DNA of 64,000 nt. Source: Capitulum mitella. Its lineage: Eukaryota > Arthropoda > Thecostraca > Pollicipedomorpha > Pollicipedidae. Position 1 is the stretch's first letter, and every line of letters begins with the position of its first letter. The stretch is taken from assembly GCA_030062745.1 (NCBI GenBank), contig CP099842.1, positions 31,348,901-31,412,900 on the forward strand. Direction: 5' to 3'. The translations under genes were made by a program, and so were the position numbers. Shown one piece after another: positions 1 to 59,000 of the stretch. The notes beneath the pieces were generated by a model that was given only the letters and a program-made list of their open reading frames with translations, was not told where the DNA came from and made no database searches.

Positions 1-6053
<6,053 letters not shown>

Positions 6054-10300: not shown

Positions 10301-11095
10301 GTATTTCTTGCAGTTTGCTGGTGTGTGCACATGTCGTGTTTCCCATTGTGTCAGTCAGCAGTGCTGGGAAATGGCTTATTTGTTTCTGTTGAGGCACCAA
10401 AACATGCCTAATCTTGTGATATGATGTCTAGATGTTTATAGCTTCAGTAGAGATTTTTTCCCAGTTTTGGGAAGATCAGCTCCTTCTACCAATCAGTGCA
10501 ACTTTGGAAGTACATGAACACCAATGAAGTTCTGATTTCTTGCCATTTTTTCATGTCATTTGATTTCATGTCATTTTTTCTGTCACAATCCTGGAGTACA
10601 TAATTTCCTGGTGGCCTGGCATAAATGCATACAAATTATGGTATCGTAACGCAATGGCGAGTCTTTTACCTGGGCATTCCTTCTTATGCCAAACAATTAT
10701 AAGAGCATGAAATGAATCATTTTTGTGGTTTGTGATAAAGCCCAGGATGCATGGGTGGATCCAAGGGCAGCCATCAGGATTGTGGGCCCTGTTATTAAAA
10801 AATCTGAGGCAAGCATGCCATCTCACCAAATGTCAAAATAGGTTGGTTGAAGTATGAAGAGAAAACATTTGGGAGTAGATTAGAATTATGCAGGTAAGGC
10901 TTGGCCCTCCCTTAGTATATAATGGGGTTCTAACAATTTTCAGATGCTTCATATTTTGTGCATCTTATAAAACTGTAACATTTCAGGAAGAGCATGAGCT
11001 CAGATTGCCATGTCAGGTAGCTGAGCAGAGGCTGGAAATCAGAGCCATGCCTGGAAATTGCCAGTGTGGAAAACCAAGGAAAGGAACAGCTGACC
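7333..11095. other. intergenic, no recognisable gene
   Basis: No open frame here resembles a known protein. Noted items: a G/C-run hairpin at 8722-8741, and a marked loss of CpG from about 9980 onward that runs into EDEM. An AG acceptor-like site (ATTTCAG near 10987) 110 bp before the EDEM start may open the exon carrying the EDEM start codon. The enkurin promoter should lie just above 7332, but no core element is distinct. Confidence 0.6.
8722..8741. repeat. G/C-run hairpin
   Basis: GGGGGTGG, a four-base TATC loop, then CCACCCCC: a perfect 8 bp stem. Its architecture is like the subterminal hairpins of the TTAA elements at 35-40 kb, but no flanking TTAA or terminal repeat was found, so its origin is unclear. 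Confidence 0.6.
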
Positions 11096-14000
11096 ATGGC
11101 TTTTGTTTGGAACAGTGCTGATCAAAAATTCAGTTACTATGCAGCAAAATCCGTGATTCTTCTAATAGTATCCCTTGGTGCATCTGCACACTCACTTGCA
11201 ACAAGAAATCAGTCCTCACTGTTTAGGTCAGTCTTGGATTTTGGGCCATCCCTAGGAAATTCAAAAAGTCTGTTTGAAAGCACAATCTCAGCCACTTGGG
11301 ATGCCATGAAATACATGCACTTCCATGATGAGACAAAGAGCCAGATGCAAGAGGAAACTCGCAGAATGTTCTATTTTGGATATGAAAATTACATGAGGCA
11401 TGCATACCCTCAAGATGAACTCAACCCCATTGATTGTGATGGAAGAGGACCAGATGTGGATAATCCGTAAGTATGGATGGTTGTTTCATGGTACATTCAT
11501 CATTGACAGGATCTTATCATAGTGTTGTTGTGATTTAACTGTTAATTATTCTTCCTGACCCAGGAGTTCTTCATGCTTGACTTTACAATATGTTATTCTG
11601 TTTATGAAAACAAAAAGCAGTCCATCATCCTTCAAAACATTGGTAGCTCTTGCCATGCATGCTGCTGTTGATTGCACCTCCATCAATTACATGTAGTGGA
11701 AAATGATGCTTCTATTGCTGTTCCAGCTCCAACTTGAACATAAATGATGTGCTAGGGGACTTTTCACTGACCCTAGTGGACACCCTGGACACCTTGGCTG
11801 TGATTGGGAATGCCTCAGAGTTCCGTAGGGCCGCCCAGCTGGTCATTGAGAAGCTGTCATTCCACAAGAACTCAACTGTTCAAGTGTTTGAATCGAACAT
11901 AAGGTATGAATGAGTTCTTGTGGATTTTTTTTGCCAGCTTGTTGTGTGATGTTTTTGCATCTATCCAAATCTGCTTTATGGTTCATTTTGTTCTGTTATA
12001 GAAAATGCATTTTGGTGCATTGCATAATGTCTTATTTCATGAATTAATCAGACTTGTTAATTCAGCCATAAATTACAAAAGAAGTATCACAGAATGCATC
12101 AGAGTAAAATGTAAGTAATTTTCACCCAGATTTTCTATGCAGCATGCATGGGCAGTCTGTGAGCCGTTCTGCAGGCCGCCGTGTTCCACAGAGTGTTGGG
12201 CGCCCTCCTGTCGGCCCACCTGCTGATCGTCGACCCAGAAAAGCCGTTCGGTGACCTGGACCCGGGCTGGTACGACGGCGAGCTGCTCGACCTGGCGCAC
12301 GACCTGGCGTCGCGCCTGCTGCCCGCCTTCGAGGAGACGGGCACCGGGCTGCCGCACCCGCGCGTCAGTCTCAGGTGGGCGGACGGCCGTCCGGCGCACG
12401 GCGCGGGACGACCGGGAGGGCGCGATCACACGCCGATTGCGCGTCTACTGAAAGTCCCCTCTTATGGGTTCTTCTAGCTGCTGCATTGTAAAACTGTTCG
12501 CAGCTGTTCTCACTAGCCTGCAGTGCCTCAGGTAGTTGTGGACGTGACTGCAACCAGCAGCTGCATCTGTGCGTCCTCACCGCTGGCCTGGATCGGCCGT
12601 TCGACTGCGTGCACGCCGCCATGCCGTGCGTCCAATGTGCAGCCGCGGCCGTGGCGGCTGTGTGTGTGACGGCCGTGTCTGCGCCGCCCTGCCCGGCAGG
12701 CTGGGCGTGCCGGAGGACGGCGTCCGGGAGACTTGTGCGTCCGGCGCCGGCTCGCTGGTGCTCGAGTTCGGCCTGCTCAGCCGGCTGCTGGGCGATCCCA
12801 CGTTTGAGAGGAGCGCCCGCCGCGCGGTCGACATCCTCTGGGGCCTGAGGTCACAGGTCACCGGGCTGACAGGTCGGTCACGGGTCGCAGGGCTGACAGG
12901 TCAGATACAGATCACAGACTACGGGGCTGACGGGTCAGGTGCAGACCACAGATTCCACGCTTGAGGGTGGTAATATGTTTAGGCTCAGTCTCGCAGGGCT
13001 CAGATCGAACAGGAAATGAAAAGCCATTTTCATCATGCTGAAGATTATTTAAAACTCATTTAGAATGCTCGTCAAGACCTGGCCGAAATATTTGTCATTC
13101 CTGTGGGCTTGGCTGCGACTCGATTTTTCAGTTGCTCGATTAGGCTCCTGGCTGATCCCTGCCAGTTTGGGATCATCGCTGCGTAGCATAAGCGTTCACA
13201 TCTTTTGACTGACCTTGCGTGACCTTGACCGCAGGTAACACGGTGAACGTGGACAGTGGCAGGTGGACCAGCAAGCTGTCCGGCCTCGGTGCCGGCATGG
13301 ACTCCTTCTACGAGTACCTCCTCAAGGCCTTCATCATGTTCGGGGACGCTGATGACTACAGTCGTTTTACTGATATCTACGAGAAAATCAAAATATTCAT
13401 GCGGAAAGGGTAAGCCACTGCTTCAGCTGGTTTCCAGCTACCGCTGTGTGTCCGTGACATGTGGCGATTGTCACGCACTTGTAATTACAGAGATGTTAGG
13501 ACTCCACTGTAGAAATGCCAGTTGGTCTGGGACAGCCATGACATGCAGTTGTGCGACGCCATGTGCTTTTCCATATTAGCCCTTGTGCTAATGTAATCAT
13601 TGCTGCCGACTTTGCTACCTTGTAACCACACTTCCACGCATTATCATGGTCACTTTTCTGGCCGTAATCATTGTGACGTGGCCGGCAGATTTTAGGTCCT
13701 TCAGCACTCTGCGTGACGGTATTTAATTCCCGCACGTTTTCCGCCTGCCGCCGCGCGGTCTGTGTCTCTGACGCCGCCGTCCGCCGGGTCCGCAGGCGGG
13801 CGCGCTGCAACAGCGGCACCGGCGACCACCCCATGTACGTGAACGTGGACATGACGAACGGCAACACGCTCACCGGCTGGGTGGACAGCCTGCAGGCGGC
13901 CTTCCCGGCCGTCCAGCTGCTGGCCGGCGACGTGGAGGAGGCCATCTGCCACCACGCCCTGTTCTACGCCATCTGGAAGCGGTAGGCCGCCCCGGTATAG

Positions 14001-15974
14001 ATCCGGGAAGAGGCGGAGACCGCCGGCGGGCGTCTGCGGCTTGGCTCCAGGTCCTGCGAATGCCCGACGCCATTAAGTGTTCACGTTTGTGGTCCAGCTG
14101 GATGAGTCAGATGCGTGGAGTTTCGTTAGGTATCACGCTTGTTGATCGAAGTGCGGCGTTCTCGTCGTTTTCGCTGTTGATGGGGTCGTTCTTTACGCAC
14201 CGGTTTCGTCATGGCTGGAGCGGCAGCTGCAAATCTCGCCTCCCGTGGCGTGTCACCGTCTGGCCTCGCCACCTGCCTGCTACGGCGCCCGGAGCTGCTG
14301 CGATGTCCACCGTCACGTGGTCGTGGTTTTCAGCTACGGCGCGCTCCCGGAGCGATTCAACTGGCAGCGCCGCCAGCCGGACGTGCTCTTCTACCCGCTG
14401 CGGCCCGAGCTGGCCGAGAGCACCTACTTTCTATACCAGGCACGTGCACGTGGCCAGCGCTCACGCTGCTGCAGGGGCGCATCGCCTCCAGTCTCGCGCG
14501 GGGGGCCAGTGTGGCGCCGTGCATGGCTTTTGTTTTTTAATGTGCCTCTGCTGTGCAGCTGCAGGAGCGTGAGAAGCCCAAGAGAAAAGAAACTGGCGTG
14601 ATGTTTTCGGCTGACCTCTCGGATGGGAGGACCCGTATACGCCAGGTCATTGTCGCATCACGAGAGGTTCAGTATGCGATGGGCGGTGGTCGAATCTTGC
14701 GGAGAGCCGATGCCGCCAGGTGTTCCTCTCTGACGCACTACCGTACGCAGGCGACCAAGAACCCATTCTACCTGCACGTGGGCCGGGAGCTGGTGGAGAG
14801 CTTGAACCGGCACGCGCGCGCCCGCTGCGGCTACGCCACGCTGCACAACGTGATCGACAAGTCGCACGAGGACCGCATGGAGAGCTTCTTCCTCAGCGAG
14901 ACCTGCAAGTACTTGTACCTGGTCAGTCGGGGAGGGAGGTGCGGTGACTGATCCAGGGAAGGAGCAATAGGGGAAAGGTGATTCTTCCGCCCATGGTGGG
15001 GAGAGGTCCGATATCGTTGCCAAGTTGGTGATGGTGTTCCGTTCTGATGTCCGGTGTCCAGTCGCATGCTGTCAAGTGGCATTGTGCAGCACTGCCATTT
15101 TGGAGACAGAGGTGCGGTTTTTAGTGAACAAGACAACCACTCATCTTTTAAGTTCTCTTTGGCCGTAGCAGTGAAATTTTGCCAGTCATTTTGAGTTTCA
15201 GGAACATCGAATCATGATCCTCCAACTTGGGGCCACTGTTCGCTGAGCTGAAGTAATACCGCAGATTTGGAGAACGTACGCCTGTATGTTACTGAGAACG
15301 AGACTTAAGCTATATTGTTGCAATATGTCAATACAGATGTGAATGCATGGCCTGATTGCAGCTGTTCGACGAGGACAACTACGTTAACCGTAATCCGATG
15401 AAGTACCTGTTCACGACCGAGGGCCACATATTCCCGCTGCATCACAATCACTTGAGGAAGTCGTGGGATACGCTGCACGAACCGCCGCGAACCAACGTCA
15501 CTGACACGGTGAGTGGTGCCCGCGATGGCTGATCCAGTAACAGCGACCGCGATCAGATAATGCGATTTGTAATCCAACCACATCGTTAACGGCAGAGCTT
15601 GTCGCTGGTATGTTAAGTAGCGCCGTAGAAAGTTGCTGTGTGGTTAAAGTCATGGTCAGCCTGACGGATATGGAAAGCAACGGGCCTAACCAGGGTCGTT
15701 GATCCCAGACATGGTACCTCATAGACAGGCCCGTGGCACGCTGGGCATTATCTCTGATCCGTATCACCGATGTGGCCCGATGCTCACTCGTCTCGGAAAT
15801 AGCACGAATTTCCGTTGCTGGCCGTTGTTGGGCCGTGTCGGCTCTGTCCGTGCGCCGCCACTGACCGCGCTCTGCCGGCAGTGCTCGGCCATCCCGCCGG
15901 ACCGGAAGCTGACTCTGCCGCTGCGGCAGCCCTACCTCTCCCAGCTGTTCGAGGCCGTCGGCACGGCCACGTGA
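11096..15974 (+). CDS. EDEM1: EDEM-type ER mannosidase-like protein (10 exons)
   Basis: Glycoside hydrolase 47 protein of the ER degradation-enhancing group, which trims mannose from misfolded glycoproteins and routes them to ERAD. Exons: 11096-11466, 11727-11903, 12192-12374, 12700-12872, 13235-13409, 13796-13981, 14334-14439, 14751-14921, 15362-15508, 15882-15974; phases chain to give 593 residues. The ATG has a strong context (ACCATGG) and is followed by a hydrophobic signal segment at about residues 17-34. Conserved GH47 landmarks are ELNPIDC, FESNIR (about 178-183), [13 protein letters not shown] (317-329), RPELAES (445-451) and the calcium-site TTEGH (532-536). It is closest to EDEM1 by recall, but EDEM2/3 assignment is not excluded; it lacks the long EDEM3 tail. 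Intron 7 appears to use a GC donor (14440). Exons 1-2 are AT-rich and CpG-poor; exons 3-10 are GC-rich. Confidence 0.93.
12863..12936 (+). repeat. tandem copies spanning the EDEM exon 4 donor
   Basis: GGGCTGACAGGTC occurs at 12863-12875 and again at 12890-12902, with a diverged third copy at 12923-12936. The exon 4 donor is the GT at 12873 inside copy 1. Copy 2 carries an equivalent GT at 12900, exactly 27 nt away and in the same phase, with no stop between them. The third copy is out of frame. Confidence 0.85.
14440..14750 (+). other. probable GC-AG intron (EDEM intron 7)
   Basis: Homology requires FLYQ to join [11 protein letters not shown]. The only phase-0 junction after the CAG codon is CAG|GCACGT, giving a GC donor at 14440-14441 and a normal CGCAG acceptor at 14750. 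Nearby GT dinucleotides would break the frame. Confidence 0.75.
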
Positions 15975-16665
15975 CGGCGCCGCGCGGTGACGTGGCGATG
16001 ACGGTGGTCTCGGTCGTCGTGCCGTGCGGGCCTGTCCAAGGTACCTGGTCGTCCGGGCGCGGCCCGCTGCTGCCTGGCGCGGCGAGGTTGTAGATTTAGT
16101 CGGAGGATATGCAGGAAGGAGATGGAAAGTCGTCGGGAAATGATGCGGAAGCTGAATTTCATGGCACTGTTGGAATCGAGACGATCGAATTAATTTATCG
16201 GAGCGCCATGACACCCCGGAATGCATTCACGCTCTGTTGTGTCGCGTTTTGCGGACGGCCTGGTGGATCGAACGAAGTCGAAGGTCTGAAACGATGGCGC
16301 TCGTTTTTGTCAAACCATAGGACGCATTGCGCCAACAGGCAGGCTGTTGTGGGTTATCACCGAGGGAGTTAGGAGCGCGACAGCCAAATGTTCGAAACTG
16401 GTGGTTGTCGTACCATAATTTGTGTGTCTGGTTTTGGGGCGAAACTATGATAAGTTGTTTCATGGACTGTGGGGTTGTTGTGCGTCAGAGGGTGAGTGCA
16501 TGTTCGGTATTCTGCTGTGGAAACGTCTGGTTCCGATTGAGTGAGCTCCAGTTAATGATTTATGTGTACCAGTACAGTGTTTATTTAGCATTGCCATTAT
16601 TTTTAAAATCATTGTTTGAACGCTTACAGCTCAAGATAATATTGTGCCTTGTATCAGCATTTTGA

Positions 16666-16671
16666 AATAAA
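16666..16671 (+). terminator. EDEM poly(A) signal
   Basis: AATAAA about 690 bp after the EDEM stop, the first canonical hexamer in the 3' region on this strand. Confidence 0.6.
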
Positions 16672-17807
16672 GGCTATTTTATTTTCTTGGTGTTACGCTG
16701 TATCTAGTCTGCGTTCAAAATATGGCACTGCGTTGGCAGTAAACGCCCGTAGGACAGTGGACGGCTTGTTTGTTGGTAATCAAAAGACGTCATGCTCAGG
16801 AGACGGAAATCTCGACGGCCCTAAATTTGTCAGTCGCTACACCTCATAATTTTGTAACGAAAGCGCTGGACGTCGTTGCCCCGTTAGGTGTCTGCGGGGA
16901 AAACCGCCTCTCCAGCCAGCAAACAGAACAGCGTGCCGAGTTACGGTGTCCTGTCAGGATCATTTTGGTTTAGGGATGTCAATCTTGGAGGTTGCAGCGT
17001 AACGGAGATACCGTAAATTGCGCAAGGCATTTTTCCAGATTTTGCACTGCTCCTTATACACATATATTGCCTATCTTTTAACCACTAGCGTATGGCGTTT
17101 CGTCCCTCAGCTTTGCGTCCAATACGTCTCTTATTAAAGGCCAAAGATGCGCAGGATACAACAGCAGCCCATTTGTGGGGTTTAGCCACTCACGTTTCCC
17201 AAACTTCCTGAACCACTGCAAAATCGCACCAGATTGGTGCATTTGACCTGGTAGACTGCAATGCAAACAAAAGATTATGGTCGAGGAGAAAGCGACACGA
17301 AATGACCCGGAAAAGAGAGTCGACAAATAACCTGATAACTGATCAAAAACTATGGAACAGCGAAAACAAACAAAAACTAGGAGAAAAGTAGAGTAATTTC
17401 CCGAACATTTCACGTCTTCACATTCACTCCAGTTCGTGACAGCGCTACGAAATAGAACCTGGGAGCACATACAAAATAGACGCACCCGAGACATTCAAGC
17501 AATACGGGGGTGAAATGGACAAGAATGGACCTCGTACACTTACCGGCGTAAATCGTTGTTGTTAGTTGGATGCATTGTTTTACCTCTCGTATGGAATTAT
17601 TTCTTCTATGCGTCTGTCTGTCTATGTCGTCTGTCTACTGCTGCTGTCAGAACAAGCTTTTAACGTTTGCTTGGGTAGGTGTGTTGTACGTGTTTTTAGC
17701 TGAGGTTGAAGAATGCAGATAGGTTACTCGGCACCGGCTCGTGTTGCCGTATACAGTTGGTATTTTGTCTTTTTCACAGTTTTTTTAGGCTTTACTTTTA
17801 GTGCACG

Positions 17808-19320
17808 GCTTTATTTTTATTGCATTGGACTCATAATTAGTATGCATTGTCTGTTCCAACTTCTGCACACCCAGAATGAACTTACATAGGAATTGTTGGT
17901 GCTGTGCTAGACTGCAAACCAAGTCTGGAAAAGGTGCTGTTTTTTGGTGTTGCAGAACATCAGGAAATGCATCCCAAAAACATTTTATATTCCAAAATGT
18001 TGCACATGCACCTCCAGCAAAAAACTACACCATAGCCATGATGACAATTTCCAACTATAAGTGAATGACTGTCTCCATTTAGTGAGAAGCAGGTATGATG
18101 TCATAAGTCATGTCTGACTGACACTAAGAATGCCAGCTTAAACCAGTACTATTTGTACAAAATTTTGTGCTCCAAAACAAATTGTATACTCTGGCACCAA
18201 GAACTAAAACCTAGTTTACATCCTTTAAGCCATCTCATGACTTTGTCAGGAGTAACCAGGGTACTGTGGTACTCTGCAAGATTCTGATTTTCATGTAAAG
18301 AATTTATACTCATCCAGGCTGTTTTCCTTTATTCCCAATAGTGTGCATAAGCACACAGCAAAGCTGTCAACTGCAAAAGTGCATGCTAGATGTTGCCTCT
18401 AGACCTACGGCATCTTGCAAAAAGCTTTCAAAATATTTACCATCCCAGTGTAGCAAAAGTATTTGCAAGTGTTTTGCTCCTTTTTTCCAGGAAAACTATG
18501 GCTAGTTCATCTGAAATAGCAGTAAATGTCTGTCATAGAAAAAAGCATAGCAAGGTAGAATTCAAGGGCATATTTCCTATACTGAATGCAGAAGATGAAC
18601 CATATACAGTAGTCCTGAATGGATCATGTGGCATTGTTTCTGAAGAAGATGTGGCTGGCTTAAAGGCTGTGGTAAGTCACATTTTATGTTTGTTTCTAAT
18701 TATACTCAGTTTTTGCATCTGTTTCTTTATGACAACTTTTCCTTGCATGTTTCTTGCTTGCATTCCACCATGTGTGTGTACAGCAGGGTTGGACTAGGTT
18801 TGTTTTTTGATGTTCAGAAAAAAAACATTTCATACTCCAAAAGTTTGATTCACCACCTCCATCAAAAAGCTGCATTATTATCATGTCAACAGAGTCCTAA
18901 CTCTGTAAACAAATGACTCTGTCTCAAATGAGTAAGAAGCAGGTGTGACTTCATAATTGACTTATGCCAAAAATGCCACCTTAAACCAGTATTACTCTTA
19001 GCTGAAAATTATGCTCCATTACCAACAACAAAAACCGAATTTCCAACCATGGTGTACAGTAGAATTATGTAATGATTAATTTATGCATCTTTATGAATGT
19101 CATGGTAATATGGCATGTTTTGTCTGTGTGTCAGGCCATATGAATGCTTCTCTGTGCCAAATAGTCATTCTATGGATGCTAATGTCACATGATAAATATT
19201 CATATTTTTAGGGATCTTTTGGTACAGAAGTTGCTGAAGATGTCTTGGATAGATACATGCAAATTCAGGAAGCATTGTTGCTTGGTGAAGATGTTCCCTT
19301 CAGAGACATGTTTTTCCTTC
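17808..19320. other. CpG desert over the 5' part of TSEN2
   Basis: Reading base by base, only about two CG dinucleotides occur in about 1.5 kb (near 18408 and 19026). CpG becomes frequent abruptly at 19322, inside TSEN2 coding exon 2. TG and CA are abundant in the desert, as expected from methyl-cytosine decay. Confidence 0.85.
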
Positions 19321-22300
19321 TCGACTCAGTACGTCGAAGCCACCGACAACAAGATGATCGCATGTCGTCAGAGGGTGCTGACCCCGAAACCCCCTGTGAC
19401 ACGCCGATGGATGAATCGAAAGACTCTGCCTCCTCGGACACGTCAGCAGACGACCTTGGTCTGGACGAGGCATCACCCGCAGAAGGCGGTCTCTCCCCGG
19501 ACAGCGCTGACGACGCCGAGTCCGACGCTGACCTCGCCGCGACCCCCGGCGCCGCCGCGGCCCCCGTGCGCCGCCTGGTGCTGCAGCCGGAGGAGGTGCT
19601 GTTTCTGTCGCACGCGCTGGGCTGCGCGCGCGTGCAGGAGGAGCGCGGCGCCGAGCTGACCGGGGACGCGCTGTTCGCCCGCCTGTCGGCCGGAGACCGG
19701 CACCTGGCGGCGCGGTACGCGGCCTACCTGGCGCTCCGGGCCCGTGGCTGGGTGGTCCGCGACGGCCTCCTCTCTGGGGCAGACTTCGGTGAGCTCCTTG
19801 CTCTGCCGTAGTTGCTTGCTGTCGGCAGTTAGTTATTTGAAAGTATAGTTTTAAAAAGCTGTTAGCAAGTCACACAGACTACTTTTACTGGCTGTAAAAG
19901 TAGCCACAAGTAGTCACACAGACTACTTTTACTGGCTGTAAAAGTAGTCTGTGTGACTTGTCCTTTGCGTATAACGCCCGACACCTGCCGGTCCGTCGCC
20001 CCATCTTTACTCCCTGCCTGGGCGTCGCAGCACCTCTGCCTTGTGATTCAGACGTCCAGGCGCGGTCGGTACCGGTCAGAATGCGTCCCTGACACGGCTG
20101 ACCGTGCCGGCAGTGGTGTACCGGCGCGGGCCGGCCTTCTACCACGCGTCGCTGGTGGCTACCGTGCAGGTGGTGAGCGCCGAGTCGCGGAGGTCGGTGC
20201 CCGAGCTGAGCTGGCGCGCCACCAGCTGGTTGTACCTGGCCGGGCTCTGCCGGGCCGCCGAGCAAGCCGCCAAGGTGAGACGAGTCAGGGCCCTTACCCT
20301 GGCCAAGCAGGCCGCCAAGGTGAGACGAGTCAGGGCCCTTACCCTGGCCGAGCAGGCGGCCAAGGTGAGACGAGTCAGGGCCCGTACCCTGGCTGAGCAG
20401 GCCGCCAAGGTGAGACGAGTCAGGGCCCTTACCCTGGCCGAGCAGGCGGCCAAGGTGAGACGAGTCAGGGCCCGTACCCTGGCTGAGCAGGCCGCCAAGG
20501 TGAGACGAGTCAGGGCCCTTACCCTGGCCGAGCAGGCCGCCAAGGTGAGACGAGTCAGAGCCCTTACCCTGGCCGAGCAGGCGGCCAAGGTGAGACGAGT
20601 CAGAGCCCTTACCCTGGCCGAGCAGGCCGCCAAGGTGAGACGAGTCAGAGCCCTTACCCTGGCTGAGCAGGCGGCCAAGGTGAGACGAGTCAGGGCCCTT
20701 ACCCTGGCCGAGGAGGCCGCCAAGGTGAGACGAGTCAGAGCCCTTATCCTGGCCGAGCAGGCGGCCAAGGTGAGACGAGTCAGGGCCCGTACCCTGGCCG
20801 AGCAGGCGGCCAAGGTGAGACGAGTCAGGGCCCGTACCCTGGCTGAGCAGACTGTCAAGATAAGGGGAGTCAGGGCCCGTACTCTGGCAGTATGGGCTGA
20901 TGTAAAGTCGGCGCCATATGCAACGCCCCAGTAAGAGTTGACCGACCCCACAGCGGGGGGGGGGGGGCAGAGCGAGCTAACGCTATCATCATGAAATCCA
21001 CAAATATTTTGGCCTGCCATTCCATGCCAGCATTCATCAATAACCACAGCGAAGACTCTCGATACCGCCGACCCAGTGAAAGTAGCTGATGGTCCCCGTT
21101 ACCTTATGGTAACGTTCTTGGTTCATACGCGGTTTGTGACGGGCGCTTACGTTCAGTTCTGAAAAGGAACCAGCGCGAATTGACCCGAAACAGGAAAGGT
21201 CGCGTAGATCACAGCAGCCATGTCGAGGCGTGGCGGCACGCCAGAATGCCGTCTGGACCGGTGCCCGGGAAGCTATGCCAAATGGATATACTTGAGCGGC
21301 GGGGTCAGGACGTGCGCCGCAAGCTTCGCTTCATTTCGACCGCGACCCGAACACGATCCAGTTCAAAGTGGGAGTCAGATTCATCATGAAGGATAGGCGA
21401 ATGCTTTTCTTCGCAGTCTGATTCCAAATACCAGCTTTTCTCTGGCGTTGCTCATTGAAATAGACGTTTTGCGAAAATTTGGATGGCTGGTGACCATGGC
21501 GATGGATATAAAGCGTACGACCGATTGGTGATATCGGGTTTGAAGTGAAAAACAATTGGTAATTATTGGAAATTGCATTGTACTTGTGATGCGCCGTAGG
21601 GCTGTGGGCATCGACTTGGAGACAAGCGTTGTTGGATTAGTCGTCTCAAAGCCTTTTACGCGATGTAAGGTCAAACACATAAACGTTTTCTCAGTTCCTT
21701 TTTTTAGTCCTTTTCAATTCATTTTCCTTCTCCGCACAAACAAGGACTTGTTAAGCTTTTTCCCATGCTGTTTCACGGCGTCATAAAATTCGTTCAGCCG
21801 CCGCGGTAGTCGAAGAGGCCTAGCACTGAATTTGAGGACTCGTATTACGGGACCAGCTTTTGCGAGACAGTTGCATAGGCCGGTCCGTGTGTTCAACCCT
21901 GTGTACTGTCACCGACGCCGGCATTAACCAGGACGGTCAGCGACCCTGGGCTCGATGCCTGTCGCAAACTGTTTGGCACAGGACGTGTGACTGTTCAGAT
22001 ACGGAGATTGGTTTGGAGTTGATTAGGGATTCTTGGACGGCTGCTGATGTTTTCAGAACTATCAGATTAAGGGTAGATGTTTGAGAGGCTTTTTTACAAT
22101 AAGACGGGTTTAATTGTGATATTAATCAGACATAACGAGGGTGAAAGGATGAAGTGTAAGTTCCATTGCGTTGATGCCTCATAGGTAGAATCACTGACAA
22201 TGTAGTTATCGACATCGATCTGTGATAGCAAAACAGTAGTCTCCTGGAAAAATGCGGAAACAAAAGAGGCACGCACCGCCGAAGCCTCCGTCGATCCGCC

Positions 22301-25300
22301 GTTGCTGATATGCAGATTGCCAACCTCATCCAGTGCGATATACTTGATCCAAATTGCCGTCAAATATGTCCCAGTCCAAACACCAGGACGCGAAGAACCC
22401 GAGCTATCGTCAGCCAGCAGTTCAGTCACGCGCACACATGTCGGCAGACCCATTGTACCGTGTCTTTCCGGTTGGGGACGCAAACGTATGTGTTGCGTAT
22501 GCGAGACGTATTTCCTTGTGTTGTGTGTGCACGCATATATGTATGTGAGACGTGTCCCCTTCGCTCCGACGTGTGACAGAACAAGGGGGCCCCGGTCCCG
22601 AGGGTCCCTATATTTTGGTCGTATTTATATCCGCAGTAGGCAAACGGGTCGGTCGCCTCGTTTCATGTGGCCGTAATGTGACGCGTGGTATAACACCATC
22701 TGAGGGGTCGTGTAGCCTCTCCTGAGTAATTCCCCAGTGGCGCTGATTTAAAACCTTAGTCTTGCAAAATGCTTTCACCTGACCGCTACCTTCAGTCGAT
22801 ACGAATTAAAAAAAAAAACATGGGAAAGCTATTATCCGAAGTGAAACCAATAACGCCGGAGTACCAGATGCTGTTTATATATTTGTTTATTTATTTATTA
22901 GATCATAAGGACGTAATCGAAACAAGCCGGCCATTCAGATGCGTTAAAGTTGAAAGGTTAACAATAGCCACTCAGTCGTCATGCCAGACATAAACGCACA
23001 TAAACCCCACACTCGCGTACATGCTGTCAGCAGCTGCACAGGCACTCTCACGGTACGCCTTCAAGGGACATATTAGCATCTCTAGCCTGCACTAGGAGCT
23101 GATTATACTTTCGGACGACCTCACAGAAGAAGCGTCGCGTCCCTCCCTCCGTTCGGCTGTACGGTAGTGTCAGATCAGCGTCCTGGCGTGTGGAAACTTC
23201 ACGAAAAGAAAACATCAGTTTGGAGGAGAGCAACGAGAGCGTGGGGTTCCGTGTTCCAGCGAACTTTGAGAAGGACAGGAGCGTGGCGCTGGTACATCTG
23301 ACGGGCGGCGCGACAGCCGAAGTCATCCCTCATGTGCGAACTGGGATGTGGTCGAATTTTGGTCGGCAAGAATTACTCGCCGAAAAAAGATACCTTTTGC
23401 AGCCGTTTGGGGATCGTTGCTGTAAACAGACAAAACACCGGACGTGAGATATGACCACAGAGTTGACAGTCGTAGGAATTACGCATCCGGGAATGCAATG
23501 CCGTACGTGAGCCAATCCGATGAAGATAACAGCGCATTTTTTATGGCATGCGACACATGAGCGTCATGCGTCAAGAACTGGCCGAAAATCCCGCCAGAGC
23601 CAGGACAGGCGGACCTCACGGACGCTGTCTGGACGAGACGCAGAGGAAATGGATTCAGCGCCGTGACAGTTCTGATTAGAACCAAAGACCATACCTTCAT
23701 GCTGCTGCTATTGGCTGGCTTGTGTGGTGAGACTGAGATCAAAGACCAACTGGGGGCGAAGCAGGGATAATGGACACCGAACCTCTTGGGAAGTTATGAA
23801 AAACCAAGGAAGCTGTTTACATTCACGTTGGCTACCAAAGAACCCATCAACCAGCCAAGTGTGGACGTCGTTCCACTCTTGCTGGTATTCCTGCGCACAA
23901 GATCGCTATCTGGAAAACTCAACTCGAGGGAGGCAAAGAAGGAGAAGTTACAGTTCTCCAAAGGTTGTCCTTCTCGATAGCTCATTGGCAGTGTCGGACT
24001 CATGTCGGACTCCTAATAGCAAGGTTGCGGGCTCTCAGTTTTTGTTTGCAGTATTTATTTGGGAACTCATGTGACGACTAGTCACCGAAATGCACCGTCC
24101 ATTGACGTCAACAGCTGATGACGGCTGGAAGTCCTACTGGCCGACACGTAATGTAACGAGTAATAGCGCACTCTTGATGAATGCAACAGTCCGAAATATG
24201 AACACATTTAATGTTTTAGCTTCTTTGTGAAGTATCCTCAGTTTCTGTCCTATTCTGACAGAACTTTTAAAAAATGGGCGTTAAAAGAAATGTCCCATCT
24301 GCAAGGTTTCATCAGTGTGATTGACAGCAGAGCGCAGAGTTTTACACCGATGGTTTATATGTACGGATGCCGTACTCTTTTGGGCAGGAATCGGAATTGG
24401 CTTATTATCTATCTGATGACGGGAGCGCCTTTCATGGGGTCCTTTAGTGCGAATTGAGGCGAAACGGCGGATATGGCCGGTCTAGGATTGCTGTGTCGCC
24501 GCCGCCTGAATTCAGTCACGCTCGCACTGCACTAGACTCGTTGGTGCGGCTGTGGATCATTCTTGGTAATCTGATGTGGTCAGAATAAGCAAGTTTACTT
24601 CAGGTATTACAGATATTTGCCCCCAGATTCTAGTTGTTATGTACGTCTGTCAAAGAAGAGAAACGAACTATTGAAAGGCGCTAACTTTGCAATTCGTTTA
24701 CTATCATCAGAGTAGGGAGCGAAGTTAAGCTTAGGCGCTTAAATTAAGCCTTTATCACGATGCATGCATCCGTCGTGATGTTTGATGCCGTTTGGATACC
24801 ATGTCCTTTCATTGAGATGTTTACAGACGCTATGAAATCATTAGGGCCATTTGTTGAAAGTATTCAACGCCTTTTATTCCGTGTCATGACAGGAACGGGA
24901 GCGCATGCTGCTGCCTTGCCCATTTGTATGATAATGGATGCTATGAGTGTCGGATTTACGCTGGTGATGGCTATTAATGTAGCTGTGTTTGAATTCTTTG
25001 TGTCACCTTTGAAATGACATTGGTGACGTTATGGTCTATTGACTGAATTCTAATGTGGTGATTATGTACCGCAGTTTAAAACGAGGAGGGTACCGCTCAC
25101 ATCGCCGTCAAATAGACATGTCAGTGTGCTGTTCCACACGTACGCAGCGAAACTTGACGCACTAGCTGGGTTGAACTTGCATACACTTTTAGCGCCAAAG
25201 TCATTCTTGTCCATGTTGATCTCCGCTTCTTGTTCACTGTGTTAGTGGGTCCGGGCCAGCCGGTAGTCTCCCTCCCTGCCGTCTCTGGACCGGTTCCTGC

Positions 25301-25478
25301 CGACTCTGTTCTGACGCCCGTCCGCCGCCAACAGGACGTCCTGCTGGTGCGTCTGCTGTGGCCGGACGGCCTGCGGGCCGCCGACCTGACGTTCCTGTCG
25401 CGGGTGGCCGTGCAGGAGGTGCACGTGCGCCGGTGGACCCCGGCCAGGCGACCGGACGGCGAGCGACCGCCGAGCTGA
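18498..25478 (+). CDS. TSEN2: TSEN2, catalytic subunit of tRNA-splicing endonuclease (4 exons)
   Basis: TSEN2 cuts the 5' splice site of intron-containing pre-tRNAs in the nucleus as part of the TSEN2/34/54/15 complex. Exons: 18498-18671, 19212-19788, 20114-20274, 25335-25478, giving 351 residues; phases chain exactly. A 3' splice site (TTTCCAG) seven bases before the ATG suggests a 5'UTR intron. The C-terminal nuclease domain is clear: ALGCARVQEE, then ARGWVVRDGLLSGADF, then VVYRRGPAFYHAS with catalytic Y253 and H261, then EQAAK|DVLLV with catalytic K304 as the last codon of exon 3, then VAVQEVHVRRW near the end. The spacing matches the Tyr/His/Lys triad of human TSEN2. The middle is an acidic, low-complexity linker (residues about 95-160), and the protein is shorter than human (465). 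The catalytic Lys codon abuts the 45 bp donor minisatellite in intron 3. Confidence 0.92.
19866..19960. repeat. perfect 23 bp palindrome with nested direct repeat, TSEN2 intron 2
   Basis: The arm at 19866-19888 is the exact reverse complement of 19938-19960. Inside, a 34 bp sequence is directly repeated at 19870-19903 and 19914-19947, and each copy can itself fold (CTACTTTTAC / GTAAAAGTAG). It lies wholly within the 325 bp intron between coding exons 2 and 3. Confidence 0.93.
20275..20859 (+). repeat. 13 x 45 bp minisatellite carrying the TSEN2 exon 3 splice donor
   Basis: Thirteen units of exactly 45 bp start at the first intron base of TSEN2 intron 3, followed by a diverged partial unit to about 20895. 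Each unit starts GTGAGACGAGTCAG and ends GCCGCCAAG or GCGGCCAAG, which repeats the last 18 bp of exon 3 (one mismatch). The exon-intron boundary has therefore been multiplied. GTGAGA donors preceded by AAG occur at 20275 and every 45 bp to 20815, 13 in all; the junction after unit 13 has ATAAGG instead. The sense frame is open throughout, encoding VRRVRALTLAEQAAK repeats, and reaches a stop at about 20934. Confidence 0.97.
20896..25334 (+). other. remainder of TSEN2 intron 3
   Basis: About 4.4 kb of unique-looking intronic sequence with only short unsupported open frames. Apart from the G13 run, no transposon ends, RNA genes or coding exons could be recognised. The intron ends with CCGCCAACAG at 25334. 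Confidence 0.6.
20955..20967 (+). repeat. G13 homopolymer in TSEN2 intron 3
   Basis: Thirteen consecutive G residues shortly after the donor minisatellite and the stop of its open frame. It could nucleate G-quadruplex structure in the nascent intron. Confidence 0.9.
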
Positions 25479-25548: not shown

Positions 25549-25796
25549 GTAAGATCGAGCGGACGGGGGTCGAGAGTGTGTAAGATCGAGCGGACGGGGG
25601 TCGAGAGTGTGTAAGATCGAGCGGACGGGGGTCGAGAGTGTGTAAGATCGAGCGGACGGGGGTCGAGAGTGTGTAAGATCGAGCGGACGGGGGTCGAGAG
25701 TGTGTAAGATCGAGCGGACGGGGGTCGAGAGTGTGTAAGATCGAGCGGACGGGAGTCGAGAGTGTGTAAGATCGAGCGGACGGGAGTCGAGAGTGT
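25549..25796 (+). repeat. 8 x 31 bp minisatellite after the TSEN2 stop
   Basis: Eight units of 31 bp, each starting GTAAGATCGAGCGGACGG; the last two carry a G-to-A change in the central G run. The first unit is preceded by CCGAAG, so the array begins at a sequence that reads as a good 5' splice site (AAG|GTAAGA), 70 bp past the TSEN2 stop. The later copies have TGT|GTAAGA. Confidence 0.95.
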
Positions 25797-27155
25797 ATTT
25801 GGTGTTACGTCCGGCAATTTGTGAAGCGGCCAGGGAAAGGTTGTGAATCATTGTTCACGATGTTTGCATTTTGCGGTGGACGCTCGGGGTCATTGCCATG
25901 TGGTAGGTGCATTGTTTTGGGAGGATTTGCTCCTCCATGTGTGTGTGTGTTTCGTTTTTTCCATGTTTCTTAGGTAAACCGTCTCGTAATCATGTCCGAA
26001 TTATCTGGCCACTCCGGATGTTTCTAACCAAACCTGCAGTAAAACAAAATGCTCGTAGAACAACTGAAACGAAGTGATGAACTGTGGAACCTAAAGCCAT
26101 TTCAGAGAAATCATTGATAATCAAAGATAATCAAATTTGAATTTGACATTGATTGAGACAAAACAAAAAAAGACATTGACGTTGAGACAAAACATTGACA
26201 ATCAAAGATAGTTCGAGAGTCGTTTTTGCGCAGTTTGCACTCACGCGAGAGCTGCTTATGCAACCATTGGACTGTTATCATATTATGGGATAACGGTGGT
26301 AGTTACTCAGTATGTATGATCATTGCTCTGATGCGGCAACGTTATCAGCCAGTCTGTATACCGCCGCTTTTGAGAACTTGCAAGGTAACGGTACAGAACC
26401 TGTCGGCGTGACTGACGGCGCGTATTACATGCAGCAAGTTTTCAGAGAAGAAAATAGGTACTTGTCAGGGGCAGTCGTTCCTTGAATCATCCAGCTGTTT
26501 GCGAGTACGAATGTTGCGTTGCGGTGCCACTGGACGAAATGTTGTAATCTCGGCACATTTTGCGTTGTTTGTAGCGCAAAGTCTGCGTTGTTCCTGGCGG
26601 CTTGTTTTATACACGAACGTAGCATACCTGAGATTATGTCAAGACACTGTCGACACCAACCATGGCAATGTCCATTCACTTACAAACCTCGAATGACCAA
26701 GGTCTTTACACATTCCGCATGGCGTAGGGGCAAATCGGCCTCTCGCGAATAACTTAACAGTGGCAGTGTTGTCGCTTAGTGTGTAGAACCACACGTACTA
26801 TACAATGACGTCAGGGCACTCAGACTTCCTGCCAGGCCTACCCCGATATGACACAGGCTGGAATGAACAGCAGACGCCACCTCAAGTCCACTCATGCGAA
26901 AGACACATTCCTGAATTCAAGCTTCACACGACCGCTCAACGCGCGCAGACGGCAGCCAAAGTGTACCCGCTTCAAATGCATACAAATAGCATGATCACTG
27001 AAAATAAGAAAGGCAATGTCGATACGGAAGACGGACGCCACTGTCGGTCACGAGTACCTCAAGCGCCTGCAGCCTCCGTCCTGGTGAACCCTGCCATAGG
27101 CGGCAACAGCTTTCTCAACGACGGCACGCCGCTCCACCGAGCATTCTGCGACCTC
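25797..27155. other. intergenic between TSEN2 and the carrier gene
   Basis: Contains the presumed 3' ends of two convergent genes. No clear AATAAA was identified for either one. A long plus-strand open frame from 26805 into 27578 is an antisense shadow of the low-complexity carrier tail and was not called. Confidence 0.5.
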
Positions 27156-40080: not shown

Positions 40081-40640
40081 TTAAAAAGGCATCTCTGTGA
40101 CACAAAGGAAGCGTCTCTGTGGTGGGGCATGGTGCCCTCAAAAGGGCACCCAGATGACATGGAGGAGGCGCCCACGTTACAATGCATGGATGGTATTTCC
40201 GTTAGTGTGACGCCCGTATAACACAAAGGCGCTCCTTCGATGTCGTAACATTTAAAAGGCGCCCCTTCGATGACATGGCGTTCAAAGGCGCCCGTGTGAT
40301 TAATCATGGTGCCTTAATGTTTGAAACGTCGCGATGACATTGAAAAGACATCTATGTATGAGTATGTATGTGTACCCCTGTCGTTCAAAAGGCGCTCCTG
40401 TGACACCAAGGAGGCGCCTCTGCGATGGAGTACCGGCATCTTGTCGTTCAAAAGGGGCCACTGTGACAACAAGAGTGGCCCCTTTGATGGAGTATGGACG
40501 TCCCGTTACTTAAAATGCGTTCCTGTGACGCCAGGAAGACACCTATCGAATGGTGTTGGGGTGCCCGTCGTTCAAAACGCACCCCTAAGACACAAAGATG
40601 TCTCGGCGAAGGACCATGACGACTGTTTCTTCGAAATATG
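40081..40640. repeat. hairpin-rich tandem array, right part
   Basis: About nine diverged units of roughly 60 bp. The unit core is CGTTCAAAAGGCGC, then TGTGACAC, then a complementary arm, then GATGGAGTATGG. The flanking arms differ between units but still pair: AAAGGGGCCACT at 40451-40462 is the exact complement of 40474-40485, and AGGCGCTCCT pairs with AGGAGGCGCCT in the previous unit. Traces of the pattern continue toward 40930. Confidence 0.75.
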
Positions 40641-56000: not shown

Positions 56001-59000
56001 AATAAGGCTTCAGGCTGGTGGTTGTTATCGGCGAAGTCATCAATGCCCTTTTCACTTCATCTTTTGACGTGCCGTTTAACTTTACTGCATGGTGGGTCAT
56101 TAAGCTAGTAGATGAAAAATGTAGACCGGTGCCTTTCTTTTTGCTTGGCATGATCCTGCTGGAAATCTGTTATGAGCGAATAGCGTAAATAAGTAAATGG
56201 AGGGATGAAAGGTCAGATTTCCATTGCTGGTTGTAATACGTTTGTAACGCACATAAATATTTGCCGTCATTCTTATGCTTTTACGCACAAGTGTTAACGC
56301 TGGCCCATTGTCAGGTGGTGGGACGGTCTGACCTGTGATGCTGTAGGTGACCTCGCCGTTGATACCGCTGTCCGCGTCGGAGGCCACCACGGCGTGCACC
56401 ACGGCCAGCTCGCTGTTCTCCGGGATCCGCAGCGGGTAGCAGGAGCCCCTGCAACGGCCGGGGCCGTCAGCGCCAGCCGACGACACGACGAGCCGCCTTC
56501 GTTAGCGCGGCGCTCGGGGACACACGCGGCCGCGGTCTGTCCCGAGTGGGGCCAATGCCGCGGCGGCGAAGGCCGCCGAACCGATACCGGTCGCGCTCAG
56601 GACGACGCCGGAGCCGCGGTGGCGGCGGCGGTGAGTCGCCGCTTTCCTGCCGCGCCGCGACCGAGGCGACACGGCGGCGCGTCGTCGCAAGGTCAAGAGC
56701 GCCGCGGCGACACGTACTTGAACTCGGGCGAGTGGTCGTTCTCGTCGAGAACCTCCACGACGACGGTGGCGGCGTCGAACTGCGGCGGGAACGAGCCGTC
56801 CCGGGCGTAGACGGTGACGTTGTAGCGCGCCACCGTCTCCCGGTCGAGCCGCTTGGCCGTGCTGATCTCGCCCGAGCGCGGGTCGATCTTGAACATGTCG
56901 TCGGCGATGCCGGCCGGGATGTAGTAGGTCGGGTTGCCGTTGGAGCCTGCGGCCGGCGGGCGCGGCGTTAGTCGGCGCCAGGCTCGCCGCGGCGGACGCG
57001 CCGCGCCGGCATTGTCTCGGCGGTGCGAACCTGAACCACGCGCGACGGCGGCCGGACCCGGCGGCCGGAGGACGGGCCGTTGTTGTTTCGTCAGAGGGCG
57101 GCCTCCGGCGCCGGCCGGACCCGCGTCCGCCGCCCTGGCGCGGAGCGGCCGGCCGGCAGGCGGCGCCGCGTCACCGCGACCCACTCCTCCCGCAGTCAGT
57201 CCACGTCGGCCTTTGCACCAGTCTTAAGTAGGCGTCCACTCACTCATCACGTGATCGTGATGGGCAAAGGAGATTTTGCCGACTCGAGCAGTCGTGGCCA
57301 CTTCGTCCCCTCCCCATATGCATCCTGGTGAGGCGCGTTTTGTGACCATAAAAGCGGCCATTTTATCGGCTCTTGGAATACAACCGTCCCTCATTATGCC
57401 ACGGTCTTTGGCTGTCCCATGTGTTCTATGTCTACTTATCGGGTGGCACGGTACGTTGTAATGCATGCACCAGCCCCATAGCATCACACGTTACAAGACA
57501 TCACGTGGATCAACCCGATAACCTCGCACCTCGAGCTGCTGCAACGGTTCTACATCTCACACCACTCCTCAATGATCCGCCCTCGCGACAGCTTGCCCTC
57601 ACGCCTCCCGGGACGTCGTCGTGACGTCACGGTGACGTCACCGGGGCCTACCTTCGTCGCGGTCTGCGGCGGAGACGCGGGCCACCAGCGTGCCGACCGG
57701 CGAGCGCTCGCTGATGTTGGCCTGGTACACGGAGCGGCTGAAGATGGGCTGGTTATCGTTGACGTCCTCGACGGTGATGGCCACCGTGACGGAGGAGGTC
57801 AGCGGTGGCTTTCCGTGATCGGACGCCGTGATGTTGAGCAGGTACTGCTTGCGGGATTCGCGGTCCAGCGGCTTGCCGATGGACAGCAGGCCTGCCGGCG
57901 GTGGGTTCGTTAGTGTCCGGCGGCCGGTTGTCAATGGATTTGTTGTCAGCACGGACCGGGGAGGGGCACCGCGATTTTAATCGTGGCTGGTTGTAGTGGT
58001 GCTCATGTGCTTGAGCTGAGTAGCCCGGCGGTACATGGGTGCACTGCACTTGGGTCGAGGAGGGAAGAATGCATTGGGACGTTACTGACTGTAGTGACAC
58101 TCATGTACTTGCACCGCCTAAACCGGCAGAAACTGCGATAAAAGTTGGTCTTCGAATGCCACCTGTTTTCGAATGACTAAAAATAAACGATGACTTGAGC
58201 TGTAGTGATCTGCCAAAAGTTGCAGTGCGGCAGATCACAGTGCATGCCATTCGTGGAGACCGTGTGACTCATTACTGATCAAGTCCAACAAAAAATCATG
58301 TCCACTGCCCCCAGTCACCCAAATGCTAACCTTAACAGGCTGCCGGCATCGCAAACTAATGACTAACTGACCGGAACCGTTTTTCAGTCGTTCCGTTTTT
58401 TGTCGCCAAGGGAGTCATGTGATGAATCACCCAATTCCATCACCAACCCCAGTCCGCGCCGGTCTCCGGGCGCTCAGCGGGCGCGCTCACCTGTCTCCCG
58501 ATGCAGGCTGAACACGCCGTCCGGGTCGCCGTCGGTGATGCCGTACGTGACGCGGCCGTTGTCCCTCGAGTCCTTGTCGACGGCGATCACGTGCAGCACC
58601 GGGTACCCGACGCGCTCGTCCTCCTTCACCGTGATGCTCGTGCCGGCGGCGCGCACGAACATGGGCGCGTGGTCGTTGACGTCCTCGATGATGATCTGCG
58701 AGGTGACGGAGGTGCTGAGACGCGACGGCTCGTCCTCGCTCTGGTCGGTGGCCGTCACGATGATGGTGTACTCGGCGTGCACCTCGTAGTCGATGGCGTC
58801 CCGCAGCGTCAGCGAGCCCGTGTACTGGTCAATGGCGAACACCGGCTCCGGCGACTGTTGGCTGATGCTGTACCTGACGGGGAGGAGACGCTGATGTCAG
58901 GAGGGGCACCACCGTCTGGTGCCGCACATGGCAGTCGGTTGGTTATTGGGGCTCTAGGGCGCGCCGGCGGCAGGGTCATCGGCGGGGTTGCCCAGGCACC

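Follow-up and report, generated by a model that had tools for sequence, protein, structure and literature searches.

Tandem minisatellite-like duplications of exon/intron boundaries have been described in amphioxus under the name of 'mirages' (PMC3087553, PMC3902484). The genes concerned are Adh3, the globins BflGb6 and BflGb9, troponin C and PGBD5, the PGBD5 structure being described as mirage-like and troponin C being cited in the second of these papers. Unit lengths in the Adh3 mirage run from 10 to 72 bp, and regular splicing is reported for amphioxus mirages together with length instability and copy-number variation (PMC3087553, PMC3902484). Intron gain from mirage copies has also been proposed in this work (PMC3087553). 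A tandem array of in-frame splice sites is known in human UBC, where it gives an isoform ladder of ubiquitin copy numbers in RT-PCR (PMC10809524). In genes of human segmental duplications, variable internal tandem repeats at exon-intron boundaries alter the intron/exon structure (PMC2812944), and an abalone kinase gene carries a 27-bp minisatellite within intron 3 which, in the passage that presents it, is not said to span a boundary (PMC6905558). Among the matches listed in the open-access literature we found no mirages outside lancelets, a result that does not prove their absence elsewhere.

We analysed a 64-kb stretch of DNA (the window) in which a 45-bp minisatellite lies across an exon/intron junction of a predicted TSEN2 gene. 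An earlier note on this DNA had stated that no enzyme was known with its active-site exon end amplified in this way. That claim does not hold, since the kind is already described in the amphioxus mirages and the human UBC array, and the TSEN2 array is a large, clean member of the mirage kind.

We identify the gene as a TSEN2 homologue from the protein predicted by joining four coding exons on the plus strand, which has 351 residues. Exon 1 (18498-18671) was placed by its open frame and splice signals alone; no database match was found over it, and the Sen2 alignment of the joined protein begins at residue 180. Exon 2 (19212-19788) was placed by profile and Sen2 matches and holds the start of the tRNA_int_endo domain. 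Exon 3 (20114-20274) has as its last codon a lysine that aligns with K416 of human TSEN2, and the coding part of exon 4 (25335-25478) includes the stop codon at 25476-25478. The joined protein scored 42.5 bits for tRNA_int_endo, above the Pfam cut-off of 27, and 72.1 bits against the solved Sen2 chain 8iss_B. Single exons gave weaker results: exon 2 alone scored 18.9 bits for tRNA_int_endo, under the cut-off of 27, a profile search of the exon 3 read-through alone gave no tRNA_int_endo match, and single-exon searches reached Sen2 at E = 0.14 and endA at 21.2 bits, under its cut-off. The predicted catalytic Tyr, His and Lys are conserved and aligned with Y369, H377 and K416, the catalytic triad of human TSEN2 (PMC10539383). 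The assignment to TSEN2 made in the earlier note is borne out by these matches. Its claim that all donors of the array share one phase into exon 4 is also right, exon 4 beginning at 25335 in the phase of those donors.

The junction array occupies 20257-20888 on the plus strand and has 14 units by TRF (period 45, 14.0 copies, 93% matches, score 1047), the top of 24 rows for the window. Each unit is made of 18 bp of exon end and 27 bp of intron start. The geometry had been described correctly before; of the limits given then, 20257 to 20895, the start stands and the end does not, as the array stops at 20888. The sequence AAGGTGAGA occurs in 13 exact copies with GT at 20275 + 45n up to 20815, as had been claimed, and in no copy outside the array on either strand of the whole 64-kb window. 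This gives 13 identical donors, AAG|GTGAGA, at 45-bp spacing (20275 to 20815, G of GT, first to last, plus strand). The intronic 19-mer had 13 matches at up to three mismatches, against 0.01 expected in shuffles. Unit 14 (20842-20886) has lost its donor, reads AAG|ATAAGG and carries 10 differences from the consensus, while units 1-13 carry one to three. The 13 intact units vary at eight positions, and three sets of units are identical in sequence (3, 5, 12 and 13; 4 and 6; 7 and 9). This pattern of relatedness, with the outermost unit 14 the most diverged, is that of ordinary minisatellite turnover, and it is reasonable to regard the array as a likely substrate for copy-number change. Translation in the frame of exon 3 is free of stops through units 1-14, and the read-through stop lies at 20932-20934.

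The array shares with the amphioxus mirages a tandem unit that spans the exon/intron boundary and AG/GT splice signals in many copies, here in 13 of 14 units. It differs from them in consisting of 13 identical in-frame donors and in standing at an active-site lysine. With human UBC it shares tandem in-frame units that each carry an AG|GT site, unit length being a multiple of three and the site present in 13 of the 14 units. However, the UBC units encode whole ubiquitins, and the UBC sites serve as both donor and acceptor with a proven ladder, whereas the TSEN2 sites are poor acceptors by score. Tested as acceptors, the AAG|G sites of the array scored between -3.5 and -8.6, the median of the 44 mapped acceptors being 8.3; a low score (-2.2) is found at one real TSEN2 acceptor too. 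Judged by score, the units therefore seem to lack the dual use of the UBC type, and only donor choice could yield a TSEN2 ladder. Dual-site or recursive splicing inside the array was also considered and judged unlikely, the acceptor scores being too low. The repeats in human segmental-duplication genes are likewise located at exon-intron boundaries, but those differ between recent human paralogues, whereas the TSEN2 array is known from one gene and one sequence. The mean GC content of the window is 54% (40-72% in 2-kb bins) and that of Branchiostoma is about 41%; on this comparison, the mirage precedent may lie in a phylum other than that of the source animal.

Which of the donors is used cannot be read from the donors themselves: all 13 share nine bases and score 8.92 bits, at the 57th percentile of 40 other donors of the window, and being equally strong they give donor 1 no preference. 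The predicted proteins do differ. The donor-1 product aligns with Sen2 through the lysine toward the C-terminus, gap-free around K416, and its best Sen2 match (72.1 bits) compares with 56.4 bits for the donor-2 product. One inserted unit lowered the score by 14-16 bits against all five Sen2 chains, although insertion lowers bits in any pairwise comparison and what the drop measures is distance from the relatives rather than a loss of function. With four of these five chains the alignment of the donor-2 product stops at or just before the lysine; with 7zrz it continues past the insert. The Pfam score is nearly flat at 42.5, 42.4 and 42.2 bits with zero, one and three inserted units, because the match ends upstream of the insertion point. 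The lower Sen2 match, with an alignment that ends near the lysine, suggests that a restored lysine is perhaps not placed in the fold; the earlier claim that a lysine is always restored at the catalytic position thus holds for the sequence and perhaps not for the fold. Exon 3 would measure 161 nt via donor 1 and 701 nt via donor 13, and short exons are favoured under the established principle of exon definition. From the protein match and exon length we infer that donor 1 is the main donor. RNA folding was a further candidate. Each unit carries CUUACCCUGGCC (in some units CGUACCCUGGC(C/U)), which is partly complementary to its own donor. In local folding, the probability of being unpaired over the nine bases was 0.024 for donor 1 and 0.001-0.117 for donors 2-13, and 12 of the 13 donors exceeded the region median of 0.0016. 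We rejected the idea that hairpins hide the surplus donors, as donor 1 is no more accessible than donors 2-13.

Two further donors of the window are associated with arrays. One array (25549-25796, plus strand; 31 bp x 8, TRF score 482) is the second-strongest of the window and starts exactly at CGAAG|GTAAGATC, 70 nt past the TSEN2 stop codon, at the donor of a putative intron in the 3'UTR of the same gene. At 25973 lies the end of an acceptor-like TTTCTTAG, whose score of 3.8 is modest against a lower quartile of 6.0. Six of the copies are identical and two have one change. Since the repeated unit lacks the exonic AAG, copies 2-8 have TGT|GTAAGA at this point and make weak donors of 1.63 bits, where copy 1 reaches 8.25 bits. 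The other array (12849-12917, plus strand) is diverged, with 27 bp x 2.6 and a score of 89, and lies across a donor (12873) in a gene for an EDEM-like GH47 mannosidase; by eye, GGGCTGAC(A/G)GGTC occurs three times within 12860-12940. Its donors score 9.11, 8.08 and 5.15 bits, the first being the strongest. The best match of the EDEM-like product was 83.6 bits via donor 1 and 72.9 bits via a later donor, which scored lower in 14 of the 14 chains listed. For TSEN2 and the EDEM-like gene, the two coding cases, it is the donor-1 product that most resembles relatives of solved structure.

Amphioxus mirages affect both 5' and 3' boundaries, whereas among the junctions mapped in this window only donors are affected: TRF arrays of score at least 50 cover 3 of the 43 donors and 0 of the 44 acceptors. 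Junctions were placed by hand, and the counts leave out ENKUR and, beyond about 58.9 kb, the cadherin exons. A self-similarity scan gave 4/43 donors, 0/44 acceptors and 2.5% of 1500 random positions at 20 of 24 matches; the corresponding values were 5/43, 0/44 and 3.3% at 19 of 24, and 6/43, 2/44 and 6.2% at 18 of 24. For array starts 0-25 bp upstream of a donor, P was about 1e-4 with the six arrays of score at least 80 and 0.0017 with the 14 of score at least 50; on removal of the TSEN2 45-bp array these became 0.003 and 0.021. We regard the enrichment of arrays at donors as suggestive only, because the 25-bp limit, the score limits and the junctions were chosen post hoc. Other repeats were seen at or away from donors. 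At the MCM2 donor at 4089 there is a partial 53-bp duplication signal (4066-4142, 20 of 24 matches) that is CAG-rich and may be low complexity. On the minus strand, at 57608-57651, 11-bp repeats (CCGTGACGTCA) start a few bases into the intron that opens with a cadherin donor (57651), and a 30-bp x 2.4 array of score 84 lies at 40224-40293, where no gene was placed.

Several other features of the window were recorded. At 19866-19960, in intron 2 of TSEN2, a 36-bp sequence stands in two identical direct copies, 44 bp apart, and there is a perfect inverted repeat of 21 bp whose arms are separated by 5 nt, perhaps a small hairpin element. An EDEM-like exon apparently ends CAG|GCACGT at 14440, which would be a GC donor or a misplaced boundary. 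To the eye, the EDEM-like and TSEN2 genes (11021-25478) seem to pass from AT-rich early exons to GC-rich late ones. One MCM2 exon matched four chains at 117-119 bits, which we take to be vertebrate, then 6raw, presumably Drosophila, at 82 bits and 8ouw at 69 bits. Searches of the 64-kb window gave no Rfam matches at gathering scores and no ARAGORN genes.

The array could be read as expressed, with several of the 13 donors used to give TSEN2 proteins with 0-12 extra 15-residue units. The isoform ladder suggested in the earlier note is possible, since the 13 donors are identical, in a single phase and stop-free, and since in UBC an in-frame array of splice sites is proven to give a ladder in RT-PCR (PMC10809524), but it is not favoured. 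The loss of 14-16 bits to Sen2 with a single unit, mostly with the match ending at the catalytic lysine, weighs against it, as does the contrast between the dual sites of UBC and the acceptor scores of -3.5 to -8.6 here. The open 45-bp unit is itself weak evidence of coding, because one length in three is divisible by three by chance and about 80% of random 27-nt stretches, the length of the intronic part, are free of stops. Substitutions among the 13 intact units were 4 synonymous and 4 non-synonymous, with 29% synonymous expected (P = 0.17), and therefore indicate no significant coding constraint on the units; selection on the repeated peptide was rejected as lacking evidence on the same figures. 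Overall we consider such a ladder improbable. The same low estimate applies to its boldest form, in which donor 1 and some later donors would yield a graded TSEN2 series in which basic 15-residue units are inserted at the active-site lysine, copy-number alleles would tune the amount of active enzyme and, more widely, donors would be recurrent birthplaces of minisatellites (3/43), with a second mirage lineage if the animal is not a lancelet.

A full-strength donor in 13 of 14 units might instead have been kept because it safeguards the splicing of an essential gene should donor 1 be lost. Any such back-up would insert 15 or more residues at the active site, however, and copies 2-8 of the 31-bp array in the same gene are weak (1.63 vs 8.25 bits), so there is no general pattern of keeping spare donors; we give this explanation very little credence. 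That the array is an assembly or sequencing artefact, with a true copy number that is small or one, has a precedent in one amphioxus mirage that was aberrantly assembled in the draft genome (PMC3087553). Against this, the 13 intact units vary at eight positions in patterns that fit minisatellite turnover, unit 14 has diverged, and two further arrays with different units lie at other donors of the window. An artefact is thus quite unlikely, although the exact number of copies may be in error.

Most probably the TSEN2 array is a mirage-type minisatellite that is spliced out with its intron and whose function is none or incidental. It probably arose by tandem duplication and then grew by unequal exchange or slippage, an event apparently of the same kind as at the two further donors. 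All extra copies lie downstream of the original donor, and splicing, mostly at donor 1, would remove the rest with the intron; the array would be tolerated because these copies leave in this way. The other donors are probably used rarely and would give small amounts of elongated, probably poorly active TSEN2.

With 13 identical donors competing in one phase, this minisatellite represents a natural test of spliceosome choice between 5' splice sites of equal strength, and of the extent to which exon length by itself settles that choice. If the source animal is not a lancelet, the mirage phenomenon would be broader than the amphioxus work describes (PMC3087553, PMC3902484). Within 64 kb there are three donor arrays and none at mapped acceptors, a hint that in this genome donors are favoured as sites where tandem duplications originate or persist; such a preference would bear on the model of intron gain by boundary duplication.
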